44,022 nucleotides of DNA, taken from the NCBI GenBank assembly GCA_003251535.1, contig QKFD01000082.1, positions 1 through 44,022 of the forward strand, read 5' to 3'. Positions 3,117 through 15,541 of the stretch are shown here, piece after piece. The notes beneath the pieces were generated by a model. The model was not told where the DNA came from. It did not search any database and was given only the letters and a program-made list of their open reading frames with translations. The translations under genes were made by a program, and so were the position numbers. This stretch comes from Chromatiales bacterium. GTDB lineage: Bacteria > Pseudomonadota > Gammaproteobacteria > Thiohalomonadales > Thiohalomonadaceae. The first letter of the stretch is position 1. Each line of letters begins with the position of its first letter.

Positions 3117-4112
3117 TTAGGCGGTGGTGGGGGTGGTCACCATCGCCTCCACTACGGCGCACCACCCCAGGGCGATATTGCCAAGGTTGTAACCACCGCC
3201 GCCCATGGCCACCAGCCGCCCTTGGGCGTGGCGCTCGGCCAGCTCCAGCAGCCGTTGCGCGACATGGCGGTGGGTAGCGGCGCTGTATTGAAGATGGGTC
3301 AAGGGATCGCCGGCGAGGCCGTCGGCACCGCACTGTAGCAGGATGAACTGCGGTTCGATCTGCTCCAGAAAGGGCTCCACCTGCCGCTCCCAGGCGATGC
3401 TGAAGGTGGTGTCGTCTGCCCCTACGGGGAGTGGCAGGTTGAGCTTGGTCCCCTCCGCCGCCCCCTTGCCCCGCTCCTCCGCCCAGCCGGTGCCGGGGTA
3501 GAGGAATGAGCCATCTTCATGCAGGTCCACCACCAGGAGGTTGGGATCGGCCTCATAGGGGTAGAAGACCCCATCGCCATGGTGGGCGTCGATATCGACA
3601 TAGAGCACCCGCTCTATGCCGTACTCCCGCCGCAGCAGCTCGATGGCGAGGGCGCAGTCGTTAAAGACGCAGAAGCCGGCCGACCGATCGGGACGGGCGT
3701 GGTGTAGCCCGGCAATGGGGGTAAAGGCGCGGCGACACCCCCCCGCCATGACTTGGCGGACCGCTGCCAGGGTGGTACCCACCACCGCCGTGGCGTGCTC
3801 GAAGATGCCGGGGAGGGCCGGCGTATCTCCGCCATCCAACAGACCTTGCCCCAGCTGGGAGGCCGCCTTGACGTGGGCCACCATCTCGGCGGTGTGGAAC
3901 CAGCGTAGCTCTGACTCCTGCGCCTGGTGGGTCGCCGGGAGCAGCCGCACCTGCGAGGCGAGGCCAGAGCGCTGAAGCTGCTCAACAAAGGCGGCATGGC
4001 GCCCCTGGCTGAAGGGGTGACTGGCACCAAAACCGTAGGCGGCAATCGCCTCGCCGGTGTAGACGCAGACGCCCTCTACCGCCGTCCCACTCTGTTCACT
4101 ATGGTCTGACAT
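3117..4112 (-). CDS. Histone deacetylase-family (class II HDAC-like) amidohydrolase
   Basis: Zinc-dependent deacetylase of the HDAC/AcuC/acetylpolyamine amidohydrolase superfamily, acting in the cytoplasm on acetyl-lysine or acetylpolyamine-type substrates. In the 331-residue protein the catalytic machinery looks complete: the His pair in GLHHARP (about 137-138), zinc ligands in VDIDAHHGDG (D175, H177) and in CGADGLAGDP (D264), and the glycine-rich MGGGGYNL carrying the catalytic tyrosine. An early YTGEAIAAYGFGASHPF segment is typical of the bacterial branch. Start: ATG 4112 is used; an in-frame GTG at 4136, preceded by GGCGGGAT and almost touching the upstream stop, is the alternative. It lies directly downstream of the CBS gene and is probably cotranscribed. 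The exact substrate cannot be read from the sequence. Confidence 0.9.
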   Translation of the reverse strand: MSDHSEQSGTAVEGVCVYTGEAIAAYGFGASHPFSQGRHAAFVEQLQRSGLASQVRLLPATHQAQESELRWFHTAEMVAHVKAASQLGQGLLDGGDTPALPGIFEHATAVVGTTLAAVRQVMAGGCRRAFTPIAGLHHARPDRSAGFCVFNDCALAIELLRREYGIERVLYVDIDAHHGDGVFYPYEADPNLLVVDLHEDGSFLYPGTGWAEERGKGAAEGTKLNLPLPVGADDTTFSIAWERQVEPFLEQIEPQFILLQCGADGLAGDPLTHLQYSAATHRHVAQRLLELAERHAQGRLVAMGGGGYNLGNIALGWCAVVEAMVTTPTTA

Positions 4113-4139: not shown

Positions 4140-4553
4140 CTATCCCGCCAGCTCGCCCTGTAGGCAGCGGCTCAGATAGCGGCAGGCGTCGGTGGTGGTG
4201 AAGATCCCCACCAACATCCCCCCCTCTGCCACCAGTACGGAGCCGATATGGCGCTCCGCCATGGTCGATACCACCTCCGCCAATGGGGTCGATGGCTCGA
4301 CGATGTAGGTTTGCAAGGTGCAGACATCCTCGACGGTGAGCTGCTCCGCCCCATCCAGACCCCGGGTAGCGAGTAGGGCGAGGTGGAGATCACGATCAGA
4401 CACCACCCCCACGGGACCCCCCTTATCCACCACCGGCAGATGGCGGAACTGGTGGGCGTGCATGATCCGCTGGGCCTCCGCCACGGTATCGGTGAGACCA
4501 ACCGTGAGGGGGGTGGGGGTCATTACTTGGCCGATGGCGGGTGGTGCAGACAT
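4140..4553 (-). CDS. Tandem CBS-domain protein
   Basis: Small cytoplasmic protein of 137 residues consisting almost entirely of a CBS pair (Bateman module): repeat 1 about 7-65 (VMTPTPLTV to GVVSDRDL), repeat 2 about 73-130 (VEDVCTLQTYIVEP to VGIFTTTDACRYL). Such modules usually bind adenosine nucleotides (AMP, ATP, S-adenosylmethionine) and act as energy or ligand sensors. ATG 4553 is preceded by GGAG at good distance; an upstream in-frame start at 4628 has nothing similar and would add a non-conserved leader. The gene is the first of a two-gene unit with the HDAC-family gene, so a nucleotide-responsive control of the deacetylase is conceivable, but that is inference. Confidence 0.9.
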   Translation of the reverse strand: MSAPPAIGQVMTPTPLTVGLTDTVAEAQRIMHAHQFRHLPVVDKGGPVGVVSDRDLHLALLATRGLDGAEQLTVEDVCTLQTYIVEPSTPLAEVVSTMAERHIGSVLVAEGGMLVGIFTTTDACRYLSRCLQGELAG

Positions 4554-4836
4554 GAAACTCTCCGGCTTGGCTGGGGGGGTTAGGGGGCAGTTTACCCCAG
4601 CCCGCTGCACTCCCCGAAGATGAAACACCGGGCGGCCAAGGGGGGATGAATTAATTTCATAATCTGTTTGGCTCTCAATGGGTTAGCCGACTTGCAGGGA
4701 CTTGGGTGGGTGATAACCAAATGAATTTATTGAATTTTTTCCGAGTCTCGGCGCGGTTGGCGGGGTTTCTTTCCTGGGATATCAATCACGTACAATGGCC
4801 GCCAACTCGTCGCCCAGCCATTCGGAGAAGCCCGCC
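4554..4836. promoter_or_regulatory. Divergent intergenic region with candidate sigma70 promoter
   Basis: AT-richer than its surroundings. A small inverted repeat ATGAA-TTAAT-TTCAT lies at 4646-4660, followed by AT-rich sequence at 4720-4740. A plausible promoter on the plus strand is TTGGCG at 4757-4762, a 17-base spacer and TATCAA at 4780-4785. This gives a transcript start near 4792, almost on the first ATG (4795), which favours the downstream GTG start at 4837. I see no riboswitch consensus although the operon contains metA. Confidence 0.4.
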
Positions 4837-5685
4837 GTGAAGCTCACCGCCGCCCAGTTTCGAGAGTGGTCCCATAAGTGTGTCACCCTGCTCGCCATGT
4901 CAGGGGTGGGCAAGACCCGCCTCTCCAATCTGCTGCGTCAAGGTAACTGGTTCCACTACTCTGCCGACTACCGTATCGGCACTCGTTACCTCGATGAGCC
5001 GATCTTGGACAACATCAAGTTGGAGGCGATGCGGGTGCCGTTCCTGCGGGACCTGCTGCGCTCCGACTCCATCTATATCCGTAATAACATCACGGTGGAT
5101 CACCTCAAGCCGGTCTCCGCCTTCATGGGCAAGGTGGGCGACCCGGAGCTGGGAGGACTCTCGCTGACCGAGTTTAAGCGGCGCCAGGCGCTCCACCACC
5201 AGGCCGAGGTGGCGGCGCTCAAGGATGTGCCGGAGTTCATCAACAAGGCGCAGGTGATCTACGGTTACAAACACTTCGTTAACGATGCCGGCGGTTCGGT
5301 CTGCGAGCTGGACGATGAAGAGGTGCTCCGGGTGCTGGATGAGCACACCGTGATCCTCTATATCAAGGCCTCAGAGAAGGATGAGCAGGCACTCATCCGG
5401 CGGGCGGAGGCGGACCCCAAGCCGCTCTACTACCGTGAGGCGTTCCTCGACGCCCAGCTGGAGATCTACATGGCGGAGCGGGGACTTGAGTATGTCGCCC
5501 TCATCGATCCAGATGACTTTGTGCGGTGGGTCTTCCCTCGTCTCTTCTACTCTCGGATCCCGCGCTATGAGGCGATTGCCGAGCGCTATGGCTATACCAT
5601 CACCACGGATGAGCTCTCCCAGGTGAAGAACGAAAATGACTTTCTGGCCCTGGTGGAACGGGCCATTGAACGCAGCAACCCATAA
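4837..5685 (+). CDS. P-loop ATPase of the metA-linked family
   Basis: Cytoplasmic nucleotide-binding protein of about 282 residues with a clear Walker A in MSGVGKTRLSNLL close to the N-terminus. The rest is soluble mixed alpha/beta, ending in a run of charged helices (DELSQVKNENDFLALVE). GTG 4837 is preferred because GGAGAAG sits just upstream and the candidate promoter ends almost on the alternative ATG at 4795, which would add 14 poorly conserved residues. The gene ends 12 bp before metA and is surely cotranscribed with it. A similar ATPase beside metA is, to my recollection, a recurring arrangement in proteobacteria, but I know of no established function. It may be a kinase-like or assembly factor related to homoserine acylation or a shikimate-kinase-like fold; the sequence alone does not decide. 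Confidence 0.8.
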   Translation: MKLTAAQFREWSHKCVTLLAMSGVGKTRLSNLLRQGNWFHYSADYRIGTRYLDEPILDNIKLEAMRVPFLRDLLRSDSIYIRNNITVDHLKPVSAFMGKVGDPELGGLSLTEFKRRQALHHQAEVAALKDVPEFINKAQVIYGYKHFVNDAGGSVCELDDEEVLRVLDEHTVILYIKASEKDEQALIRRAEADPKPLYYREAFLDAQLEIYMAERGLEYVALIDPDDFVRWVFPRLFYSRIPRYEAIAERYGYTITTDELSQVKNENDFLALVERAIERSNP

Positions 5686-5697
5686 GGAGAGCAACCC

Positions 5698-6768
5698 ATG
5701 CCCCTGGTGGCCAACTCCGCCCTCCCCGCCTTCGAGCGGCTTCGCAGCGAGGGCCAGACCGTCATCCCCTCCGGGGTGGCGGAGCGGCAAGATATCCGCG
5801 AGCTACACATCGGCCTGCTCAACATGATGCCGGATGCCGCCCTAGAGGCGACCGAGCGGCAGTTCTTCCGCCTCATCGGCGAGAGCAACCAGATCGCCCA
5901 GTTCTACGTCCACCCCTTCACCCTCAAGGAGCTGAAGCGCGGTCCGGAGGGGCAGGCCCATGTTGAGCAGTTCTATGAGAGCTTCGACAAGGTGATGGCG
6001 GAGGGGCTCGATGCCCTCATCATCACCGGCGCCAACGTGCAGGGGGCGGAGCTGTCAGACCAACCCTTCTGGCGGCCGCTGATCGAGGTGATTGATTGGG
6101 CCTGGGAGCACGTCACCTCCACCCTCTGCTCCTGCCTTGCCACCCATGCGGTGATGGAGTTCCGCTACGGCCAGAAGCGCCGCCCGCTCAGCGATAAGCG
6201 CTGGGGGGTTTACTCCCACCGGGTCATGGAGCGCAAACATCCACTAGTGTCAGACGTCAACACCCGCTTCGATGTCCCCCACTCCCGCTTCAACCAGATA
6301 GATCGGGAGCAGTTCGATGCCGCCGGTTGTGGTGTGCTGGTGGAGAGTGAGGTGGCGGGCGTCCACCTGGCGGTGAGTGAGGACCTGTTCCGCTTGGTCT
6401 TTTTCCAGGGCCATCCAGAGTACGACAGCATCAGCCTGCTCAAGGAGTACAAGCGGGAGGTGATGCGCTTTGCCGCCGGTCAGCGGGAGGCGTTTCCCCC
6501 CTTTCCCGAGAGTTATTTCTCCCTCCAGAGCGAGGCCATCCTCGGTGAATACCGCGAGCGTTTGGTGCGGGCGATAGCGGCGGGGGAGCCACTCCCGGAG
6601 ATGCCGGAGAGATTGGTGGCCCGGCAGCTCGACAACACCTGGCACGATACCGCCGAGGCGGTGTTGGACAACTGGGTCGGCCATGTCTATCAGGTGACCC
6701 ATGTCGATCGCAAAATCCCCTTCAAGGACAACATCGATCCCAACAATCCCCTGGGTCTGAGGCGATGA
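5698..6768 (+). CDS. metA: Homoserine O-succinyltransferase
   Basis: First committed step of methionine synthesis: transfer of an acyl group (succinyl, possibly acetyl) from CoA to homoserine, in the cytoplasm. The 356-residue protein has the MetA (class I glutamine amidotransferase-like) fold: LHIGLLNMMPDAALEATERQFFRLI near 36-60, a nucleophile region CSCLATHAVMEFRYG where C146 aligns with the catalytic cysteine, and GHPEYD (H239, E241) completing the catalytic set. It is longer than E. coli MetA (309) through a C-terminal extension ending in DNIDPNNPLGLRR. AAGGAGAG precedes the ATG. It is 12 bp behind the ATPase gene and overlaps the following DUF2288 gene by ATGA, so the three form one unit. 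Acyl donor preference is not decided here. Confidence 0.93.
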   Translation: MPLVANSALPAFERLRSEGQTVIPSGVAERQDIRELHIGLLNMMPDAALEATERQFFRLIGESNQIAQFYVHPFTLKELKRGPEGQAHVEQFYESFDKVMAEGLDALIITGANVQGAELSDQPFWRPLIEVIDWAWEHVTSTLCSCLATHAVMEFRYGQKRRPLSDKRWGVYSHRVMERKHPLVSDVNTRFDVPHSRFNQIDREQFDAAGCGVLVESEVAGVHLAVSEDLFRLVFFQGHPEYDSISLLKEYKREVMRFAAGQREAFPPFPESYFSLQSEAILGEYRERLVRAIAAGEPLPEMPERLVARQLDNTWHDTAEAVLDNWVGHVYQVTHVDRKIPFKDNIDPNNPLGLRR

Positions 6769-7079
6769 CTGAGCTAGAACCGGAACAGCCGCTGGAGCTG
6801 AAACTCAACCAGGAGACCGGCCGCATCACCTGGCTGGAACTCTCCCGCCACTTCGCCCGTGGGGTGGTGGTGACGGTGGCCGCGGAGTTGGATCTCGTCG
6901 AGGTCGCCAGCGGCCTCGCCCGGGATGACAAGCAGGCGTTTGAGGCGTGGATTGCGAGTGGCCGGGTGGCCCGCGCCAGTGATGAAGATGCCAAGGAGTG
7001 GCAGGCGCGTGACCCCGTGTTCTGGGCGGTGGTGGTCTCGCCCTGGGTATTGGTACAGGAGATCGGTAGCGAGAACTGA
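6765..7079 (+). CDS. DUF2288 family protein
   Basis: Small acidic cytoplasmic protein, 104 residues. It contains the DUF2288 signature stretches ITWLELSRHFARG, VVTVAAELDLVEVASGLARDD and DPVFWAVVVSPWVLVQEIG. No catalytic residues or membrane segments are evident and the family has no established function. Translation is coupled to metA through a four-base ATGA overlap. The 78 bases after its stop, up to the membrane protein gene at 7158, contain no convincing promoter or terminator. Confidence 0.85.
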   Translation: MTELEPEQPLELKLNQETGRITWLELSRHFARGVVVTVAAELDLVEVASGLARDDKQAFEAWIASGRVARASDEDAKEWQARDPVFWAVVVSPWVLVQEIGSEN

Positions 7080-7157
7080 GTGGCAACGTATACCGTTCAT
7101 CTATCTATGCTACGGTAACGCCAGCGACATTAGACGGGGGTCACCCGCGAGGGCGCC

Positions 7158-7658
7158 ATGCGACAGCAACGGTGGGCAACGTTCAAGTATCAATATGCGG
7201 GTGCCGGGCCCTCCGTCGGTCCCCTTCGGCGCTGGAGTGGCAGTGCGTTGCTGCTGGGTGCCGGGCTCCTCTTCACCCAGGTGGATCAGTGGGCCGGGGC
7301 GGTGTTAGTGGCCCTGTTACTGGTGGCGGTGGGGCTAGGTCTGCTGTTCCTGCGGCCATCCAAACAGATCCAGCTTGGACAGCGCTTTCTTGTCTGTGGT
7401 CAGGCGTTGATCTACTACGCCAACATCACCCGTCTGGTACTGAGTGAGGGGCAGGGGCGGCTCACACTGCAATCGGTGAACGGCCAGACCCTGGTGATCG
7501 AGCGCACCCACTTCCCCACCAACGCGCGTAAGAGCGAGAAGATTCGCATCAACCAGACGGCCAAGTTCAACCGCATCGCTGGCAAGATCATCGAGCGGGT
7601 GCGCCGGGCATCGCCGAGTGCGGAGCTGGTGGGCGTGACCTCCAGCGGGGCCGCTTGA
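7158..7658 (+). CDS. Two-helix membrane protein of unknown function upstream of radical SAM gene
   Basis: Predicted inner-membrane protein of 166 residues. Residues about 28-43 (GSALLLGAGLLFTQV) and 46-69 (GAVLVALLLVAVGLGLLFL) form a membrane hairpin. The C-terminal 95 residues look like a basic cytoplasmic domain with beta-strand character (RFLVCGQALIYYANITRLVL, GRLTLQSVNGQTLVIERTHF), ending in an amphipathic helix. I do not recognise a named family; the layout recalls small PH-like membrane proteins. It lies 26 bp before the radical SAM gene in the same orientation, so it may belong to that unit, for example as an anchor or export accessory. That role is inference from position only. Confidence 0.7.
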   Translation: MRQQRWATFKYQYAGAGPSVGPLRRWSGSALLLGAGLLFTQVDQWAGAVLVALLLVAVGLGLLFLRPSKQIQLGQRFLVCGQALIYYANITRLVLSEGQGRLTLQSVNGQTLVIERTHFPTNARKSEKIRINQTAKFNRIAGKIIERVRRASPSAELVGVTSSGAA

Positions 7659-7684
7659 GCGGCTGATTTCGAGCCGTCGCACCG

Positions 7685-9493
7685 ATGTCAACGCCCCTCC
7701 CTCCCCCGCTTGAGCGCCACATTCACCTGCTCTATGTGCCGACCTTGGGCTGCAATCTCGGTTGCAGCTACTGCTACCTCGGCGACCAGACCACCCAGGC
7801 GCAGCTGCGCACCGACTCCGATCGGGCCGTAGCCACCCTGCACCACGCCTTGGCGGCGCTGGAGGCGGCAGGGGTGTTGGCGTTCAATGTCTCACTCCAT
7901 GGTGGCGAGCCGACGCTGTTGCCGTCAGCGGTGTTGGACACCCTATTCGGCGAGATCCGCGCCCACTACCTGCGCCACTTCGACGCCATCAGTGCCTTGG
8001 GGCAGAAGAAGAGCGCCCCCCACATCAAGACCAACCTATTCAAGTTCGCCCCGCTCTACCCGCTGTTTGAGCGCCACAAGGTCTCCATCAGCGCCAGCAT
8101 TGATCTACCGCTCGCCCTCCATGCCCGCCACCGTACCCTCCGCGGTGGTGGCTCGTGGATCGAACGCACCCTGGAGAATCTGCGACTGTTGGCGCGTTAT
8201 CCCCACGCCAAAAAGATCTCGGCCACTGTCAGTGCCGAGCATCTGGTGGATATCCCCGCCTTCATTGCCGACATCTGGTTCATCCACCGCGAGATCGGTT
8301 TTGACATGAACCAGTTCAATATCATGTTTGCCTTTGCCGCGCAGCGGGGAGGGGCGGGGAACGGTCTTACCCCGGCGGGTGAGGCGTTACAGCTCGCCCT
8401 CTACACCGCGCTCAATGAGGCCTTTCGCGGCACCGAGTTGGAGGAGGGGCTGCGGCGCAACTGGTTTGATGAGTTCAAGCCCTCCTACTGCACCAACGCC
8501 CAAAACTGCGGCGAACGTTTCTACCTGCTCCAGAGCGATGGGTCGGTCTACTCCTGTGTGCGCGGCCAGGGGTTGCCGGAGTTCTACTACGGCAACATTT
8601 TCAACGACTCCATCGATACCATCCTGGGCAACGGCGCCCGCAAGATCAGCGAGGCCCATCAGCGCTATGGCTTTGATCCCGCCTGTCAGGAGTGCTGCTA
8701 TCTCCCCATCTGCCGTACCGGCTGTCCGGTGGTGAAACAGCAGCATGGGCAGGGGCGCTCCTACACCTGTAAGTTGCAGCAGGCGATCTATGTCGATCAA
8801 CCGCGCTCCTACCCCGCCGCGACGCCGCAGGCGCAGCAGGCCTATGCCCGCCACTACGGCCGCGAGGTCCACCCCCACCTCGCCTTTACCCAGCAAGAAG
8901 AGGTGTCTGATCCAGGGTTACGCTTGCCCCACGAGCTGGGCGAGGAGCGCAACACCCTGCGGGCGCTGATTGAGACCGATCCCATCCTCCAGCAGCTCTA
9001 CAGCCCAGCGGCATTTCTGTTGGAGATAGGCGATGAACAGGTGGCGCTCACCTCCCAATTGCTCAAGACGGGGAGTACCTGGTACACCCTCACGCCACAA
9101 GATCGGCTGGTGCTCCATGGGCGTTGGGAGCTGTTTGAGGCGAACTGTGCAGAGCCGGTGCGCAACACCCTCCATCTACAGCTGCTGCGTGATACGCCGG
9201 TGGTCTATGGCGATGAGAAGCGCACCAAACAGGCCCATCTCTTCACCTACCAGATCTTCCGCGACGCCCTCCTGCCGAGCAGTCTGCGCGGGCCGGACTA
9301 CTGGATGGCGGACCTCGGTGAGCTGTTGCGGATCCATCGCCATCTCTATCAACCCCAGGTGTTGAACAACCTCTTTTTCACCACCGGCTATCTGCGTGAG
9401 TACCACTACCAAAAGCAGAAACTCAACGCCTTTTACCATCTACAGGCGATCAATCTACCGTTCCAAAATGTGGAATTCTTCTACCTGTCCTAA
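7685..9493 (+). CDS. Radical SAM/SPASM maturase with large C-terminal extension
   Basis: Predicted iron-sulfur enzyme that cleaves S-adenosylmethionine and modifies a peptide or protein. In the 602-residue protein the SAM cluster motif is C23-x3-C27-x2-C30 (CNLGCSYC), followed by the GGEP motif at 73-76. A canonical SPASM domain binds two auxiliary clusters: C275-x10-G-x4-C291, then C334-x2-C337-x5-C343-x3-C347 and C362, the pattern known from anaerobic sulfatase-maturing enzymes and RiPP maturases. About 240 residues follow (roughly 365-602) that I cannot assign; they are neither a further cluster motif nor a clear precursor-recognition domain. No sulfatase gene is visible nearby. The immediate downstream gene (18 bp) encodes a protein with an 11-asparagine tail, the obvious candidate substrate. 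Family certain, reaction unknown. Confidence 0.92.
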   Translation: MSTPLPPPLERHIHLLYVPTLGCNLGCSYCYLGDQTTQAQLRTDSDRAVATLHHALAALEAAGVLAFNVSLHGGEPTLLPSAVLDTLFGEIRAHYLRHFDAISALGQKKSAPHIKTNLFKFAPLYPLFERHKVSISASIDLPLALHARHRTLRGGGSWIERTLENLRLLARYPHAKKISATVSAEHLVDIPAFIADIWFIHREIGFDMNQFNIMFAFAAQRGGAGNGLTPAGEALQLALYTALNEAFRGTELEEGLRRNWFDEFKPSYCTNAQNCGERFYLLQSDGSVYSCVRGQGLPEFYYGNIFNDSIDTILGNGARKISEAHQRYGFDPACQECCYLPICRTGCPVVKQQHGQGRSYTCKLQQAIYVDQPRSYPAATPQAQQAYARHYGREVHPHLAFTQQEEVSDPGLRLPHELGEERNTLRALIETDPILQQLYSPAAFLLEIGDEQVALTSQLLKTGSTWYTLTPQDRLVLHGRWELFEANCAEPVRNTLHLQLLRDTPVVYGDEKRTKQAHLFTYQIFRDALLPSSLRGPDYWMADLGELLRIHRHLYQPQVLNNLFFTTGYLREYHYQKQKLNAFYHLQAINLPFQNVEFFYLS

Positions 9494-9511
9494 CTGCGGA
9501 GGGCACGTCCC

Positions 9512-9916
9512 ATGGCCGTACAACCGCTGATGCAGACCGCTTTCACCGTGGAGCGGTTTTTGGATGCCGCTCGGATCGACGATGGGCGTCAGCGTACCCA
9601 GATGGAGGAGTGGTTGACCCAATGGCTGGCCGCCACCCGTGGGGGCTATGCCGTCTATCATCGCGGTAACGTCTACTGCTACGAGCAGGGGGGGGCCGTG
9701 GCCCGCAGCTTCTCCATGGCCGCGCAGCGGCAACAGCCCATCTGGTGTGACGGTAAAAAGCTGTCGTTGCTGGATGAGCAGGCCTATCTCGAACGTGGGG
9801 CACTGGTGATGTTGGGAACCGCAGGACTACTAGGGAGCGGCGCCTCACGGGCCGAGTATGGGGTGGAGGTCAGCAGTAATAACAACAATAATAACAATAA
9901 CAACAACAACGGTTGA
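9512..9916 (+). CDS. Small protein with C-terminal Asn11 tail; candidate substrate of the radical SAM enzyme
   Basis: Protein of 134 residues. Residues 1-110 form a compact, apparently folded part (FTVERFLDAARIDD, then YAVYHRGNVYCYE and IWCDGKKLSLLDEQ) with two cysteines (C56, C79). A glycine-rich stretch GTAGLLGSG follows at about 102-110. The end is EVSS, eleven consecutive asparagines (123-133) and a final glycine. Codons of the run are four AAT and seven AAC in irregular order. GGAGG precedes the ATG, and it lies 18 bp behind the SPASM gene, so coupled expression is likely. I recognise no family. A leader-like folded part plus a low-complexity tail next to a maturase suggests a RiPP-like or post-translationally modified protein, but a plain polar tail on an accessory subunit is possible. 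Confidence 0.75.
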   Translation: MAVQPLMQTAFTVERFLDAARIDDGRQRTQMEEWLTQWLAATRGGYAVYHRGNVYCYEQGGAVARSFSMAAQRQQPIWCDGKKLSLLDEQAYLERGALVMLGTAGLLGSGASRAEYGVEVSSNNNNNNNNNNNG

Positions 9917-9928
9917 GCAGGCGAACGC

Positions 9929-12313
9929 TTAGCCGGCCGCCGGTTGGCGCACCGGCGTGGTGCCTGCCGCGTCAGCGCGCAGCCCAATGTTGACCCGCTC
10001 CAGGGCGGTGAAGAGCTGGAGCGGGGTGACTGGTTTGGCGAGGAAGTCATCCATCCCTGCCGCCCGACACGCCTGCACATCCTCATCGGAGCTATTGGCG
10101 GTGAGGGCGATGATGGGTAGGTGGTGGCCAGGACTGTGGCGCTCCTGGGCTCGCCAGCAGCGGGTCGCCTCCAGGCCGTCAGTTCCGGGCATTCGTACAT
10201 CCATCAACACCACGTCAAACGGCTCGGCCGTCAGCAGTGCCAGGGCCTGCGAGCCGTTCTCCGCGTGGACCACCTCAAAGCCGGCGCGGGAGAGGAAGGT
10301 GGTGATCACCTTGGCGTTAACCTGATCATCCTCCGCCACCAGTACCCGCATCCCTGGCAGTGGCTCGGCGCTCTCCCCCAGGGGCAGGAGCGGCAGCTCC
10401 TTGCGTTGCAGCTGGGCGATGCAGCTGGCGAGGGCGGCGCGGGTCACCGGTTTTACCAGGTGCTGGTCGTAGAGATCGGTCTCGTTGTGGGTGGTGAGAT
10501 AGCGCAGGTGAACCAGCAGCGGATGGGTGGGGCCGAAGCGGGTACGGAGCAGCTGGGCCAGATTGTCGCGGGAGGGATCGGGGCCATTCTCCGCTAGGAA
10601 GATGAGCGCCGGCGGCTCCCCCTGGGGGGGCGCGTTGACCACCTCCACCGGGCTCATGGAGATGGCCCGTACCCCCATGGCCCGAGCGGCGTCGATGAGG
10701 GCAACGCGCGCCTCAGGGTCCGCCTCCACCACCCAGGCGAGGTGGGTCATTGGGGGAGGATAGGTCGGTTCAGTCCCCTCCCACGGCAGCTCAAACCAGA
10801 AGAGGGTGCCACCCCCTGTACCGCTGTCGAGGCCGATGCGTCCCCCCATCAGCAGCACTAATTCACGGGCGATGGTGGTGCCCAGACCACTCCCTCCAAA
10901 ACGCCGTCGATTGGAGGGATCGCCCTGGGTAAAGCTGTCAAAGATCACCGCCTGCTTCTCCGGCGGGATCCCGGGGCCGGTGTCGATCACCTCAAACCGC
11001 CCCAGGGGCGCCTTGGGGTCGTTGATGAACTGGGCGCGGATTACCACCCGCCCCCGCTCGGTGAACTTGATGGCATTGCCCACTAGATTGAGCAGCACCT
11101 GTCGTAGTCGCGCTGGGTCCCCCTTCACCTGCTCCGGTAGCTCGGGGGCGATGTGGCACACCAGCTCCAGCCCCTTTTCGTGGGCGGTGGTGGCGAGGAG
11201 TAGCGCCACATCCTCCAGCACCGTGATCGGCGAGAATTGCTCCTGCACCAGCACCAGGCGGCCCGCCTCGATGCGGGAGAAGTCGAGGATGTCATCGAGC
11301 AGGGTGCGCAGGGTGCGGGCCGACAGCTCCAGATGGTAGAGGTAGTCGCGCTGAACGGCGTCGAGTTGCGACTCTCGCAGCAGCGCCAACAGCCCGAGGA
11401 TGCCGCTGAGAGGGGTACGGATCTCGTGGCTCATGGTGGCAAGAAAGACGCTCTTGGCACGGCTCGCCTCCTCTGCCCGCGCCCGCTGGCGGCGGAGATC
11501 CCGGTTGGCCGCCTCCAGCTCCTCCAAGGTCTGGCGCAGGCGCGCGGTCGCCTCATCGATGCGCTGCTGCATCTGGTCCCGATTGCTGCGCAGGGCGTCG
11601 ATCATCTGATTGAGCCCCTGCTGAAGCCGCAGCAGCTCCCCTTGGCCATCCTCTGCGGTGCGGTGGGTCAGCTCGCCGCTGGTGACCCGGGCCACGGTGT
11701 TGGCCACGGCCTCGATGGGTTCAGCGATCCGGCCACCGGTGAAGACCGCCACCCAGGCGATGAAGAAGGTGACCACCAGGGTGATGGCCACCGTCTCCAA
11801 GATGGTGGAGCTGCGCAGCGCCAACATCTCCCCTTTGGAGAGGCGCAGGATCACCGTGCCGATGGGTTCGCCCCGATGGAGCCGCTGGGTCTGCTCAAAG
11901 TCATCCACCGGCAGTAGGGTGCGGCGGATGGTGGCACAGAAGGTCAGCTCCTCCGGCGTCTCATTGCAGCGGCTCACCTCCGCCTGAGGGGTGAGCCAGG
12001 CGGATTGGATGGTCAGCGGTCCCTGATTGAGCAACACCTGACCATCCCGATCCAGGATGGCCAGACCGCTGACATGGCGGGCCGCCAGGGCGCTACGGGC
12101 GAGCTGGGCCAGCAGCTCGGTGTGGCCGGTGGCCACCGGATACTCACTGGCGGGGGCGAGCTGGGTGGCGAGGGTGTAACCATGGTCGGCCAGACCGCGG
12201 GAGAGGGATTCCAGCTGATTGCTGACAAAGTAGAGGTAGAGCGTCACGGCCACCAGCAGGGCTGGCAGGAGCGCCAGCAGCAACATGCGGTGGCGGATAG
12301 TGAGGCTATTCAC
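9929..12313 (-). CDS. Hybrid sensor histidine kinase (HAMP-HisKA-HATPase-REC)
   Basis: Inner-membrane sensor kinase, about 794 residues. Order: N-terminal helix, a periplasmic domain of about 150 residues (RHVSGLAILDRDGQVLLNQG), second helix about 172-192, HAMP, coiled coil, HisKA with H296 in MSHEIRTPL, HATPase (NLVGNAIKFTERG, DTGPGIP, GGSGLG), a degenerate receiver (AWVVEADPEARVALID, lacking an obvious acceptor), and a complete C-terminal receiver with D705 in LMDVRMPG and KPVT. No Hpt domain is seen, so phosphotransfer must go to another protein. BarA-like architecture. Start GTG 12313 is chosen: it follows AGCAGG and overlaps the preceding gene's stop by 8 bases; ATG 12361 lies inside that gene. 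Third gene of the TonB receptor operon, so it probably reads the ligand bound by the two upstream products. Confidence 0.9.
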   Translation of the reverse strand: MNSLTIRHRMLLLALLPALLVAVTLYLYFVSNQLESLSRGLADHGYTLATQLAPASEYPVATGHTELLAQLARSALAARHVSGLAILDRDGQVLLNQGPLTIQSAWLTPQAEVSRCNETPEELTFCATIRRTLLPVDDFEQTQRLHRGEPIGTVILRLSKGEMLALRSSTILETVAITLVVTFFIAWVAVFTGGRIAEPIEAVANTVARVTSGELTHRTAEDGQGELLRLQQGLNQMIDALRSNRDQMQQRIDEATARLRQTLEELEAANRDLRRQRARAEEASRAKSVFLATMSHEIRTPLSGILGLLALLRESQLDAVQRDYLYHLELSARTLRTLLDDILDFSRIEAGRLVLVQEQFSPITVLEDVALLLATTAHEKGLELVCHIAPELPEQVKGDPARLRQVLLNLVGNAIKFTERGRVVIRAQFINDPKAPLGRFEVIDTGPGIPPEKQAVIFDSFTQGDPSNRRRFGGSGLGTTIARELVLLMGGRIGLDSGTGGGTLFWFELPWEGTEPTYPPPMTHLAWVVEADPEARVALIDAARAMGVRAISMSPVEVVNAPPQGEPPALIFLAENGPDPSRDNLAQLLRTRFGPTHPLLVHLRYLTTHNETDLYDQHLVKPVTRAALASCIAQLQRKELPLLPLGESAEPLPGMRVLVAEDDQVNAKVITTFLSRAGFEVVHAENGSQALALLTAEPFDVVLMDVRMPGTDGLEATRCWRAQERHSPGHHLPIIALTANSSDEDVQACRAAGMDDFLAKPVTPLQLFTALERVNIGLRADAAGTTPVRQPAAG

Positions 12314-13214
12314 CCTGCTGACGCTCCGCGGCCTTGAGGTCGTGGGCCAGGGTCTCCTCACTGGCGAGGCTGATGCCGAGCGAGCGGGCTACCTGGTAGT
12401 TGGCGGCAATGGAGAAGCGGCTAGGGTGCGTGGGGGGGGGCAGGGTCTCTGTACGGCCCGTCAGCAGAGGGGCCACCATCTCCGCCGCCTGCGCCCCCAG
12501 CTGGGCGGGGGTGGAGTAGACCGCTGCCAGCGCCCCCGCCTTCACGAACGCCTGGGAGTAGCCGATGATCGGGGCGTTGCGTAGATAGGCGCCCAGAATC
12601 AGAGTCTTGGCCGATTTGGCCGAGACTACCGTGGGATCGGGCAGGGTGAGCAGCGTGTGGCCGCCACTGGCCAAGCGGGCCACGGCCCCATCCAGCTGGG
12701 CGATATCGTCGATCTCCTCCGTGGTCAGCGCCAGACCGGCCGCCGTGGTGGCGCTCTGCAACTCACTGAGCTGCTGGCGCGACCACGGACCAAGCAGCGC
12801 CCCAACAGGGCGCTCCGGCAAGGTGATGGCGATAAATTGCACGATACGTTTCACCGGCTGGTCGATGTAGAGCGCCGATACCCGCTCCCGCTGGGCAGGA
12901 TAGAGACGCAGAAAGGTGGCCTGACTGATAAGGGTGTGGAGCGTTACCCCGTGGGCGGCATAACGCTGTGCCGCCTCGGTACCCACCGTTACCGTCACTG
13001 TGGCCTCTCCCTCCGTGGGCCACTCCTTGTCAAACCGCAGCTCGGCGGTGATCCCCAAGGCCTGTAGGCGGCTCTCCAAGGCGGCCACCAGCTCCTGGTG
13101 GTGGGGATTGTCCGGTTCGCCCACCACCGCCAAGGTCGCGGCCCCCACCGGCTGGGCGGTAAGGAGCGTCCATAGTACCCAGAGACATGTCAGTGGGCCC
13201 CCTCTCCTTCTCAT
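12306..13214 (-). CDS. Periplasmic ABC-type substrate-binding protein (PF04392-like)
   Basis: Exported 302-residue protein with a signal peptide (basic start, hydrophobic LTCLWVLWTLLTAQPVGAA, cleavage near residue 25). The mature part has the two-lobed type I binding fold of the ABC_sub_bind (PF04392) family: TLAVVGEPDNPHHQELVAAL, VGALLGPWSRQQL, GHTLLTLPDPTVV, the hinge-like PIIGYSQAFVKAGALAAVYS and the C-terminal IAANYQVARSLGISL. No permease or ATPase gene is adjacent, so it probably works as a sensory binding protein for the hybrid kinase encoded immediately downstream (8-base overlap) rather than in transport. The TonB-dependent receptor gene is 32 bp upstream. Ligand unknown; relatives have been linked to amino acids and other small molecules. 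Confidence 0.85.
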   Translation of the reverse strand: MRRRGGPLTCLWVLWTLLTAQPVGAATLAVVGEPDNPHHQELVAALESRLQALGITAELRFDKEWPTEGEATVTVTVGTEAAQRYAAHGVTLHTLISQATFLRLYPAQRERVSALYIDQPVKRIVQFIAITLPERPVGALLGPWSRQQLSELQSATTAAGLALTTEEIDDIAQLDGAVARLASGGHTLLTLPDPTVVSAKSAKTLILGAYLRNAPIIGYSQAFVKAGALAAVYSTPAQLGAQAAEMVAPLLTGRTETLPPPTHPSRFSIAANYQVARSLGISLASEETLAHDLKAAERQQGE

Positions 13215-13246
13215 GCCTCCAGCGCTTCCCTCTTATCCTGCGGCGA

Positions 13247-15310
13247 TCAGAATTCGAGCCCGAGTCTAAGGTAGGCTGCTCGCTCCTGATAGACCCAATT
13301 GCGAAAGTCGAAATACTCCCCCAGCAGATTGCGCAGGGTCAGCCCAAGCTCACTGCGCGTGCTCCCCTCATGGAGCTGGAAGGCGAGATCGAGATCCACC
13401 GCGGTGTAGCCCCCGGTGGGGTCACCCGGCCCGATGAACTGCATATCGGTGACGTGGTAGAGCCCCAAACTACTGCGAAACTGCTCGGTGAAACGGTTGC
13501 TGGCCAGCAGGCTGAGGGTGGTGAAGGGGACGCTATCGTCGGTATTGCGCCACTCTCGACCGTCGGCGCTGTCCTCAACATTGATCTCATCCAACACCCG
13601 TCCACTGGAGCGGGCGTGGGAGATAGCAAAGGAGATGAGGGTATCGCGGCTGGGTTCAAGGCGCAGCTGTGCCTCCACCCCCTCGGTGCGGGCCGATCCG
13701 GCATTGGTGATGATCCAGGCTCGCTGGTTGTAGGGGTCGGCGTAGGCGTTGTCCTCCACCACGGTGATGGCATCGGTGATGCGCTCGGAGAAGAGTTTCA
13801 GCTCATAGCTGACCCGGCGCCCCTCCAGGCTCCCCCCCAAGGCCAACTCCACGGCGTCGATCCGCTCCGGATCGGGGATGGTGGGGCTGACATAGAGGAT
13901 GTCGAGGGCGTTGCCATCCTCCAGGCGGGCGGCGTAGTTGGCCTTGGCCTCAAACAGTGCCGGGGTGCGATAGGCGCGGGTGAAGCTGGTGCGGACGAAG
14001 TGATCCGGGGCAAAGCGGTAGTTGATGGCGGCCCGGGGGGAGAAGCGGGTATCGGTGATATCGCTCTTCTCCGCCATGGCGCCGATGTTGATCACCCAAC
14101 GCTCAGCCGGGGTGAGTTCGTGGTTCATGAAGAGCCGGTAGAGATCGCTCTTCTCCCAGGCGCTGGTCCCGAAATAGCCCGCGCCACGGATGCGATCACG
14201 GCGTGCCTCCGCCCCCCACACCACGCGCCAGCCGGGATGGGGGCTGAGGTGGTGCTCCAGCTCTAGGTTGGTCCGCTCATACTCGACATTGTTATCCACC
14301 ACCACCGACTGATCCGGCAGGCCGATCAAGAGCGGGACGGCGGCGCTGGGGACCCCTAGCAGCTCCGAGAGGGCGGGCGATAAGAAGCGGTCCTGCATCC
14401 GATTGTGGGTGCGGTAGAGGTTGAGCTTCACCTCCTCCTCGGAACTCATCACATGCTGCCAGCGCAGCTGCTGGTGATCGTAATCGACGTCGCGGCCGCG
14501 GGTGGGATCGAGGGGATCATCATCACTTCCCCGTTGGCGATCACCACTGCCAAAACCGACATCGAGGGTAAGGTAGTCGTTGATCCCCGCCCGCCAGTCG
14601 GCCCGGGCGTTGATAAAGCCGGTCCGTTGGTCATCATTGACCTCTCGCGTCTCGGCGCCCGGGCTGAGATCGGAGAAGCCGCGATCATCATTCATAAAAC
14701 CGGAGAGGCGTAGGGCGAAATCGCCCTTCACCACGCCATGACGCAGGTAGACCCGATCATCGGAGTTCTCACCATGGCGCAGGGTGAGGTGATTACCCGG
14801 CTGTTCGGTGGGATCTCGGGTGATGATATTGATCACGCCGAGGAAGGCGTTGGCCCCGTAGGTGACCCCATTGGGGCCGCGGGTCACCTCAATCCGCCCG
14901 ATATCCTCCAGTGCCACCGGCAGGTCCTGCCAGTCAACGCCGCCGGTGGCGGGGTTGTAGACCGAGCGACCATCCACCAACACCTGCATCCGGCGGGCGA
15001 AGTTATCGGAGTTGCCATGGTAGGTGACGGTGGTACGCACCCCTTCGCCGTTGTCGTGGCCCACCTGGAAACCGGCCACCAGGCGCAGCAGATCGGGCAC
15101 ATCGCGTGCACCACTGGCGGTGATGAGGTTGCGGTCTATGACGGTGACCGAGGCCGGCAGCTCCGCCGGGCGTTGGGGGATGCGGGAGACCGTGAGCACC
15201 ACTGGCAGGTCATCCAGCAGCGCCTCTGCCGGGAGATCAAACTCTGATTCGGCCAATACAGGGGTGGTGGCCGCGAGCAGTAGGGCGGCACCGATATGGT
15301 TTTTCATCAT
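13247..15310 (-). CDS. TonB-dependent outer-membrane receptor
   Basis: Outer-membrane beta-barrel of about 687 residues for energised uptake of a siderophore, corrinoid or similar ligand. Signal peptide MMKNHIGAALLLAATTPVLAES; then the plug domain (about 45-150: VLTVSRIPQRPAELPASVTVID, ARDVPDLLRLVAGFQVG, IEVTRGPNGVTYGANAFLGVINIITR) and the barrel, ending in phenylalanine (YLRLGLEF) as usual for BAM-inserted proteins. The ATG pair at 15305-15310 was chosen because it begins the signal peptide; the frame extends upstream to 15358 without conservation. It is the first gene of an operon with the binding protein and hybrid kinase. The plug sequence is of the BtuB/CirA/colicin-receptor type; substrate is not determined, and no cobalamin riboswitch box is visible upstream. 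Confidence 0.92.
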   Translation of the reverse strand: MMKNHIGAALLLAATTPVLAESEFDLPAEALLDDLPVVLTVSRIPQRPAELPASVTVIDRNLITASGARDVPDLLRLVAGFQVGHDNGEGVRTTVTYHGNSDNFARRMQVLVDGRSVYNPATGGVDWQDLPVALEDIGRIEVTRGPNGVTYGANAFLGVINIITRDPTEQPGNHLTLRHGENSDDRVYLRHGVVKGDFALRLSGFMNDDRGFSDLSPGAETREVNDDQRTGFINARADWRAGINDYLTLDVGFGSGDRQRGSDDDPLDPTRGRDVDYDHQQLRWQHVMSSEEEVKLNLYRTHNRMQDRFLSPALSELLGVPSAAVPLLIGLPDQSVVVDNNVEYERTNLELEHHLSPHPGWRVVWGAEARRDRIRGAGYFGTSAWEKSDLYRLFMNHELTPAERWVINIGAMAEKSDITDTRFSPRAAINYRFAPDHFVRTSFTRAYRTPALFEAKANYAARLEDGNALDILYVSPTIPDPERIDAVELALGGSLEGRRVSYELKLFSERITDAITVVEDNAYADPYNQRAWIITNAGSARTEGVEAQLRLEPSRDTLISFAISHARSSGRVLDEINVEDSADGREWRNTDDSVPFTTLSLLASNRFTEQFRSSLGLYHVTDMQFIGPGDPTGGYTAVDLDLAFQLHEGSTRSELGLTLRNLLGEYFDFRNWVYQERAAYLRLGLEF

Positions 15311-15541
15311 GGGGCAGTAGTCCACCGAGGCTGGCGACGGCAGCGTTGCATCTTGCACCCGTAAAGGCCTCCGGGCCGGTTGTGCCGCCTTCGTTAACTT
15401 ATCACAGCCTTAGCGGTCTGGCGGTTAGACGACGGTGCGTGGAGGCCAAGAGATCAGTGAGGTAACCGTACTGCACGTAATTGGCGGCTCGCCCTGGGCG
15501 GGGGCTGATATTATGGTGCCTCTTCCCTGCGCGCCCTGCCC

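Follow-up and report, generated by a model that had tools for sequence, protein, structure and literature searches.

A radical SAM/SPASM enzyme associated with C-terminal asparagine runs in a bacterial three-gene cassette and in phage tail fibers

Here, we analyzed a 44,022-nucleotide stretch of DNA from a Chromatiales bacterium (contig QKFD01000082.1, assembly GCA_003251535.1; the whole stretch is called the window below) and, within it, a cassette of three genes that encode a membrane protein, a radical S-adenosylmethionine (SAM)/SPASM enzyme, and a small protein, the carrier, that ends in eleven asparagines (Asn) and a glycine. Sequence comparisons strongly suggest that the Asn tail is the substrate of the enzyme: a chromosomal carrier and a phage tail fiber, which are proteins of different kinds, share a C-terminal Asn run and the same enzyme family, and the run is therefore the likely substrate. 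Most likely, Asn residues that follow one another in exposed C-terminal tails are modified by the enzyme, presumably through oxidative C-beta radical chemistry, and the modified proteins stay whole. With less confidence, though we still lean toward it, we propose that an undescribed class of radical SAM enzymes recognizes C-terminal Asn runs and oxidizes them, or cross-links them to themselves, residue by residue, both in the chromosomal cassette and at the fiber tip of Campylobacter-type phages. The chromosomal membrane cassette is known from Rhodocyclaceae, Chitinibacteraceae and the organism of the window.

Results

The carrier protein ends in a conserved asparagine tail

The cassette and its parts are as follows.

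7158..7658, + strand: gene 1, a 166-residue protein that begins with a hydrophobic (membrane) segment and is conserved in its C-terminal part (open reading frame (ORF) call).
7685..9493, + strand: gene 2, the 602-residue radical SAM/SPASM enzyme (ORF call and profile matches).
7751..7774, + strand: CX3CX2C radical SAM cluster motif of the enzyme (C23, C27, C30), in 19 of 19 aligned sequences.
8489..8770, + strand: SPASM region of the enzyme with eight cysteines (C269, C275, C291, C334, C337, C343, C347, C362), in 19 of 19 aligned sequences.
8921..9490, + strand: C-terminal domain specific to this enzyme family, about 190 residues long and strongly conserved in an alignment of 14 (for example, NAFYHxQxxNLPF).
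9512..9916, + strand: gene 3, the 134-residue carrier with its Asn tail, the proposed substrate (ORF call and 16-sequence alignment).
9512..9826, + strand: predicted folded alpha/beta domain of the carrier, residues 1–105 (AlphaFold2).
9875..9913, + strand: C-terminal tail S-N11-G, directly before the stop codon; all 16 intact homologues have S-N(9–17)-G here.

The original prediction, made from the letters of the window, had described the three ORFs, the 18-base gap between genes 2 and 3, and an end whose AAT and AAC codons follow no periodic order. All of these were borne out on re-reading: the carrier ends in S-S-N11-G, and its Asn codons (4 AAT and 7 AAC) are mixed non-periodically. The tail is the only run of at least five AAY codons on either strand of the window. 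All 16 intact carriers, the window's included, end in S-N(9–17)-G-stop, and the tail is kept even in a diverged one (L049, genome G905), which is 30% identical to that of the window. The serine before the run is encoded by AGY in 13 carriers and by TCG in three, and the glycine after it by GGC, GGT, or GGG. Since the codons vary while both amino acids persist, Ser and Gly are kept as residues. Tail length, on the other hand, is loose (9 to 17) and changes quickly, for example, 9 vs. 15 Asn in the close pair L017 and L041; therefore, what is selected seems to be a repeated, polymer-like property and not one defined peptide. The S-N(9–17)-G segment has no aromatic residue or histidine in any of the 16 carriers.

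We also considered that the run could be a neutral or slippage-born low-complexity tail without any relation to the enzyme. The fast change in length would fit such an origin. However, the run is present in all intact members, the 30%-identity one included, and is always flush with the G-stop; its codons are mixed, the tail is gone where the enzyme is gone, and phages offer a parallel (see below). The sum of the longest same-codon runs was 51, below the 68.4 ± 5.0 obtained from 20,000 within-tail shuffles (p = 5e-5; the rows are related to each other). A neutral tail is thus very improbable, and the earlier statement that the run is not a microsatellite holds. A chance or microsatellite origin was rejected on the codon mixing, the 16-member alignment, and the changes of Ser and Gly codons.

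The tail had been envisaged as an appendage of a folded protein, and structure prediction agrees. The AlphaFold2 model of the carrier (four sequences; mean predicted local distance difference test (pLDDT) score 79) has a folded domain over residues 1–105 and a tail that is disordered from about residue 109; block means are 75 to 95 over residues 1–100 and below 50 over residues 109–129. The carrier of the window had no Pfam or NCBIfam match at E 0.1. Its model returned nothing at E <0.1 from Foldseek searches of the PDB and viral libraries, and VIA-align gave Z ≤4.0 over 56 residues with mixed, unrelated folds. This lack of a fold match to a predicted model is no proof of a new fold. Rows for Polycomb EED (PDB and Pfam) align to the tail end of the carrier and resemble low-complexity matches; the remaining weak Pfam rows concern one or two members each (E 0.04 to 0.13).

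Between the carrier domain and the tail, the window (9803–9847) and many homologues have a hydrophobic Gly/Ala-rich stretch. It reads LVMLGAAGLILTMPGSGAA in L032, is shorter in the window, and in some carriers looks by eye like a signal-peptidase site. The stretch is absent from the diverged L049, so it is not general.

The enzyme retains all cluster cysteines and has a family-specific C-terminal domain

By its sequence, the gene 2 product is a member of the radical SAM/SPASM superfamily. Its matches to Pfam PF04055 (3.8e-6) and to the SPASM family PF13186 (6.9e-4) lie slightly below the gathering thresholds, and its match to NCBIfam SPASM TIGR04085 (44.4 bits) is above the cut-off of 27. The canonical cysteines that had been read from the sequence were confirmed: none of the eleven is missing from any of the 19 aligned sequences, among them the window's enzyme, five from Campylobacter-type phages, and that of the metagenome contig L061 (this count uses six of the 15 phage-side records introduced below and excludes the cut enzyme of L049). 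The eight SPASM cysteines are enough for two auxiliary clusters.

The region beyond the SPASM cysteines had been noted as unassigned, and Pfam indeed gave no match there in the window protein; one row, at E 0.074, appeared for one of 14 members. The best PDB row for the C-terminal domain was at E 0.34. Among 144 genomes searched, the domain was found in the window's own genome alone; it is also present in the phage relatives. The structure model of the enzyme is poor (mean pLDDT 53, four sequences). In a tree of the enzyme without an outgroup, the window copy falls next to those of the Rhodocyclaceae family sample, where the branching is unresolved, and transfer of the cassette between lineages is possible.

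The cassette is rare, and enzyme and tail occur together

When one genome per species was scanned with the carrier sequence, patterns of the Asn run included, at least three relatives were found, two in Rhodocyclaceae and one in Chitinilyticum aquatile DSM 21506. In these three, the order is membrane protein, enzyme, carrier, as in the window, and the carriers end in S-N12-G, S-N10-G, and S-N9-G. With a carrier profile, hits were obtained in 11 of 249 genomes in the family of the Rhodocyclaceae relative, 3 of 43 in the Chitinilyticum family (the Chitinibacteraceae sample), 3 of 399 in the order, and 2 of 369 in the class of the window. A single-sequence carrier search of 144 relatives recovered the window's own genome alone. 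All of these genome sets overlap. A plasmid search with carrier residues 1–123 found none. The cassette is rare and scattered.

The enzyme adjoins the carrier in all 16 intact cases, 14 of them full-length and two truncated by the end of the contig or locus. A homologue of gene 1 lies upstream of the enzyme in each of the 14 cassettes whose DNA extends that far. The coupling of enzyme and tail that had been proposed is supported by two family samples. In the 249-genome sample, the enzyme (E ≤ 1e-60) was found in 11 genomes, ten of which are carrier genomes. The eleventh, G362, has gene 1 and the first part of the enzyme gene, but its contig stops inside that gene, before the place of the carrier. 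In the Chitinibacteraceae sample, enzyme and carrier searches gave the identical 3 of 43 genomes.

The remaining carrier genome of the 249-genome sample, G361, is a natural loss case. It retains gene 1, followed up by a carrier homologue of 125 residues that lacks an Asn tail (L040:2123-3081). The enzyme search of that sample did not hit this genome, and in the 9 kb available, neither an enzyme match nor a stretch of at least four AAY codons occurs. The original prediction had regarded carrier homologues with neither tail nor radical SAM neighbor as a sign against it. Taken literally, one of 17 homologues is of this kind, but the enzyme and the tail are missing together, and G361 therefore supports their coupling.

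Relatives of the enzyme sit next to phage tail fibers with asparagine tips

Scanning viral sequences with a profile of the chromosomal enzyme yielded no relative. A profile of the C-terminal domain matched six viral contigs, and an enzyme search of the plasmid collection found a Campylobacter coli record with an enzyme 34% identical over 97%, inside a phage tail module. After further scans, there were 15 phage-side records: 13 IMG/VR contigs, NZ_CP082878.1, and Campylobacter phage CAM-P21. Weak enzyme hits in L082 and L083, which end before the C-terminal domain, were excluded. Seven of the IMG/VR contigs encode an enzyme 90–100% identical to that of C. coli. We use the label 'Campylobacter-type' since a host is named in the NZ_CP082878.1 and CAM-P21 records only; the CAM-P21 genome report carries an expression of concern, and this record was given no weight by itself. 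We take these Campylobacter-type prophages to be Mu-like.

In 14 of the 15 records, the enzyme is preceded, at a distance of about 0.6 kb, by a tail-fiber gene whose product ends in an Asn run. The ends are NNNNY (nine), NNNNN (one), GNNF (three), and GNNS (one), preceded by T, S, C, or G, and the fiber domains before the Asn tip vary among phages. Wherever it was read, one gene of about 210 codons separates fiber and enzyme; its product has no match to the carrier profile. Mechanical gene calls gave 152 distinct genes in the phage stretches. Twelve of them encode proteins with NN among the final four residues, and these fibers account for 11 of the 12.

As a control, we collected 28 loci with a matching fiber N-terminal domain. 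Seven have the enzyme, all among the 14 above, and all seven fibers end in Asn runs. By contrast, none of 19 loci with the same fiber domain and no enzyme in the available DNA has an Asn-run tip (L089 and L090, where the contig ends within the fiber locus, were dropped). At least 2.5 kb of downstream DNA is present in 15 of these 19 loci and less in four. Many loci are near-identical (11 of the 19 have one common tip), hence the control represents few independent events. The Asn tip is likewise absent from three named records without the enzyme in the available stretch, namely a Campylobacter jejuni prophage segment and two Helicobacter prophages.

Closely after the enzyme, L067 has a gene annotated as DUF1353 (9736-10122), and proteins of similar appearance by eye occur at the same place in L062 (5830-6171), L063 (7059-7433), and L064 (6567-6935).

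Observations that weigh against the proposed substrate, and the possible link to sulfatases

Several observations weigh against an Asn-run-modifying enzyme. Firstly, in L061, one of the 15 viral or plasmid records, a member of the enzyme family is present, yet no protein end with an Asn run lies close by. Secondly, in L065 (4796-6588) and L066 (4795-6552) the reading frame of the enzyme is broken up, yet the fibers still end in GNNF or GNNS; intact copies of this enzyme exist in other phages. Thirdly, phage Asn runs go down to two residues. Fourthly, the chromosomal tails lack an aromatic residue, hence the known cross-links between Asn C-beta and an aromatic side chain cannot apply unchanged. 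The AAT share of the tails (64/175) also does not differ from that of the enzyme genes in 13 loci (92/312, p = 0.13), and many sequences are closely related, so that the counts given above are not independent. Lastly, two points concern sulfatase maturation: the best NCBIfam profile for the enzyme is the anaerobic sulfatase maturase TIGR03942 (74 bits vs. a cut-off of 349.45), and PF00884 proteins are encoded in 10 of the 16 cassette genomes, including that of the window (six hits).

In L061, the position of the fiber (3519-4037, with the enzyme at 4756-6576) is taken by a protein of 172 residues whose C-terminal part, CALCASCSGCPC, is rich in cysteine. L061 is a metagenome contig and forms a long branch in the enzyme tree, and the cysteine-rich protein is perhaps another type of target.

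The sulfatase resemblance suggests a different target, namely the invariant Ser before the run, which would be oxidized as in sulfatase maturases while the Asn run serves as a handle or spacer. This Ser is indeed invariant in 16 of 16 carriers across AGY and TCG codons, and besides the top NCBIfam score, the only PDB sequence matches at E <0.001 are sulfatase-maturating enzymes (4k36 and 4k37, of the structures 4k36-4k39). However, phage fibers have T, S, C, or G in the corresponding position, so Ser is not general, and the score falls so far short of the family cut-off that membership among the sulfatase maturases was rejected. We regard Ser as an improbable target. Whether the enzyme might be a known maturase serving a distant sulfatase had been raised earlier, and the outcome is mixed: the low score and the six of 16 cassette genomes with no PF00884 hit at E ≤ 1e-10 (genomes mostly of unstated completeness) argue against it, while the ten genomes with such proteins argue the other way. 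PF00884 also takes in non-sulfatase enzymes. A sulfatase as the general partner is unlikely; where PF00884 proteins exist, a distant sulfatase substrate is possible.

Comparison with known SPASM systems

Many NCBIfam SPASM families match the enzyme weakly, and no maturase family comes near its cut-off; the next after the best are TIGR04083 and DynA. Like the anaerobic sulfatase-maturating enzymes (anSMEs), it combines a radical SAM core with a full eight-cysteine SPASM region, the arrangement with two auxiliary clusters that PMC5682303 describes for anSME. Unlike them, it has an extra conserved C-terminal domain of 190 residues, and its cassette is without a sulfatase.

The cyclophane-forming SPASM maturases (GrrM/OscB, XyeB, and AmcB; DynA) resemble it in that 12 or 13 of the 13 members match their profiles weakly. 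Membership among the triceptide or cyclophane maturases was rejected, as the enzyme scores 55, 36, 56, and 61 bits for GrrM/OscB, XyeB, AmcB, and YhhB against cut-offs of 310, 450, 425, and 445, respectively. According to PMC11002830, Asn C-beta is attacked by SPASM enzymes in triceptides (XncB and OscB), in a Cys-Asn ranthipeptide, and in dynobactin. The aromatic residue or His that triceptide cores have two positions before the cross-linked residue is absent from the S-N(n)-G tails; in phage tips, Y or F comes after the Asn, not before, in 12 of 14. The cassette also differs from cyclophane systems in that its carrier has a folded domain of about 105 residues.

In the His-Xaa-Ser system, the substrate carries C-terminal repeats and two enzymes are encoded, as opposed to one here. 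The likeness lies in a SPASM enzyme paired with a dedicated partner that has a repetitive C-terminal part. The enzyme scores 56 bits against the HxsB (TIGR03978) cut-off of 370, however, and an Asn homopolymer replaces H-x-S.

Campylobacter phages have been found rich in radical SAM genes before: CP220 and CPt10 encode 11 and 12 such proteins, and a module with five of these is read as interchangeable and metabolic in PMC2853527. The enzyme family here, by comparison, sits in a tail-fiber module.

A defense function was considered, and PADLOC gave no convincing match for it: the enzyme core gave weak viperin matches (best 1.1e-5, residues 22–83), and the products of genes 1 and 3 had no match at E 0.1.

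Genomic surroundings of the cassette

The membrane segment of the gene 1 product was judged by eye, and this protein has no Pfam family above cut-off. In L037 (5394-6523), two proteins of the gene 1 type stand in tandem; the second is a divergent paralogue and sits between gene 1 and the enzyme. Profile scans of the window showed neighbors of ordinary kinds. Upstream of the cassette, they identified a homoserine O-succinyltransferase and a DUF2288 protein. Downstream (9929-15358, - strand), a BarA-like hybrid histidine kinase, an ATP-binding cassette (ABC)-type substrate-binding protein, and a TonB-dependent receptor run in one direction; they could be a sensory or uptake unit, apparently without a link to the cassette. 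By mechanical gene calls, distant cassettes have in common the three genes, a loose cluster of signaling proteins (seven loci), and a CBS protein (two loci); other neighbors are common to close relatives only.

Pairs of an enzyme and a small partner are typical of loci for ribosomally synthesized and post-translationally modified peptides, and many SPASM enzymes serve such products. The Asn tail might thus be cleaved and exported as a small molecule. However, as had been stated at the outset, no protease or exporter lies nearby (none among the 10 window proteins scanned, 4143-15358; unlinked ones are possible), distant cassettes have little in common beyond the three genes, and the phage partner is a structural fiber protein. 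We therefore regard a released peptide as a poor prospect. Modification of a protein is the reading we prefer, since the fiber must stay whole and the scanned window proteins include neither protease nor exporter.

Discussion

A mechanism for the proposed modification of asparagine tails

The 5'-deoxyadenosyl radical is the established product of radical SAM clusters. We propose that the folded domain of the carrier docks on the enzyme, probably helped by the C-terminal domain of the latter, and that the docked carrier presents its disordered S-N(n)-G tail. The CX3CX2C cluster would then make the 5'-deoxyadenosyl radical, which would take hydrogen from the Asn residues of the run, most likely from C-beta, residue by residue. 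The two auxiliary SPASM clusters would accept the electron, giving oxidized Asn that is unsaturated or cross-linked. The modified carrier would remain whole, probably kept at the membrane by the gene 1 product, and the phage relatives would treat the Asn-run tip of the tail fiber likewise. The coupling of the genes, the conservation of the tail and of the cysteines, and the co-variation in phages are shown by the comparisons, while the parts of the scheme built on them differ in strength. That the tail is the substrate is, as stated above, the strongest of them; oxidation at C-beta is proposed with moderate confidence by analogy to known SPASM enzymes; and the conserved gene order hints, weakly, that gene 1 may anchor the carrier in the membrane, the role suggested for it at the outset.

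The full set of SPASM clusters predicted from the cysteines points to oxidative chemistry. Tails without an aromatic or cysteine partner should yield a product different from the known ones, either unsaturated Asn or links between neighboring Asn residues. We also considered that the enzyme epimerizes Asn, by removal and return of the C-alpha hydrogen, to give a tail of mixed L- and D-Asn, perhaps a beta-helix as in proteusins. A single repeated residue would fit an iterative epimerase, and PMC5682303 reports radical SAM epimerization of up to eighteen residues in polytheonamides as well as a C-terminal auxiliary cluster in YydG. Nevertheless, epimerization is redox-neutral, yet all eight SPASM cysteines are kept, and no peptide epimerase appears among the best 25 NCBIfam rows. 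Epimerization is thus an unlikely route, if a better candidate than Ser oxidation or peptide release, and oxidation of the Asn run remains the chemistry we favor.

Significance

A SPASM enzyme with a dedicated partner is a known kind of system; its substrate logic and its use by phages look new. Searches of an open-access library, in which most subscription papers are absent, listed no title or abstract that describes such a system. To our knowledge, SPASM enzymes known so far act on defined peptides or on the active sites of enzymes. What is conserved here is a homopolymer whose length varies and which sits on an apparently whole protein; this would be a new substrate logic for SPASM enzymes, perhaps with new Asn chemistry. 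Both branches are small and genetically simple. The phage branch ties the enzyme to fiber tips and, if our proposal is true, a radical SAM enzyme would modify the host-binding protein of a virion at the receptor-facing tip of its fiber; a modification made by an enzyme could thereby shape how phages recognize their hosts.

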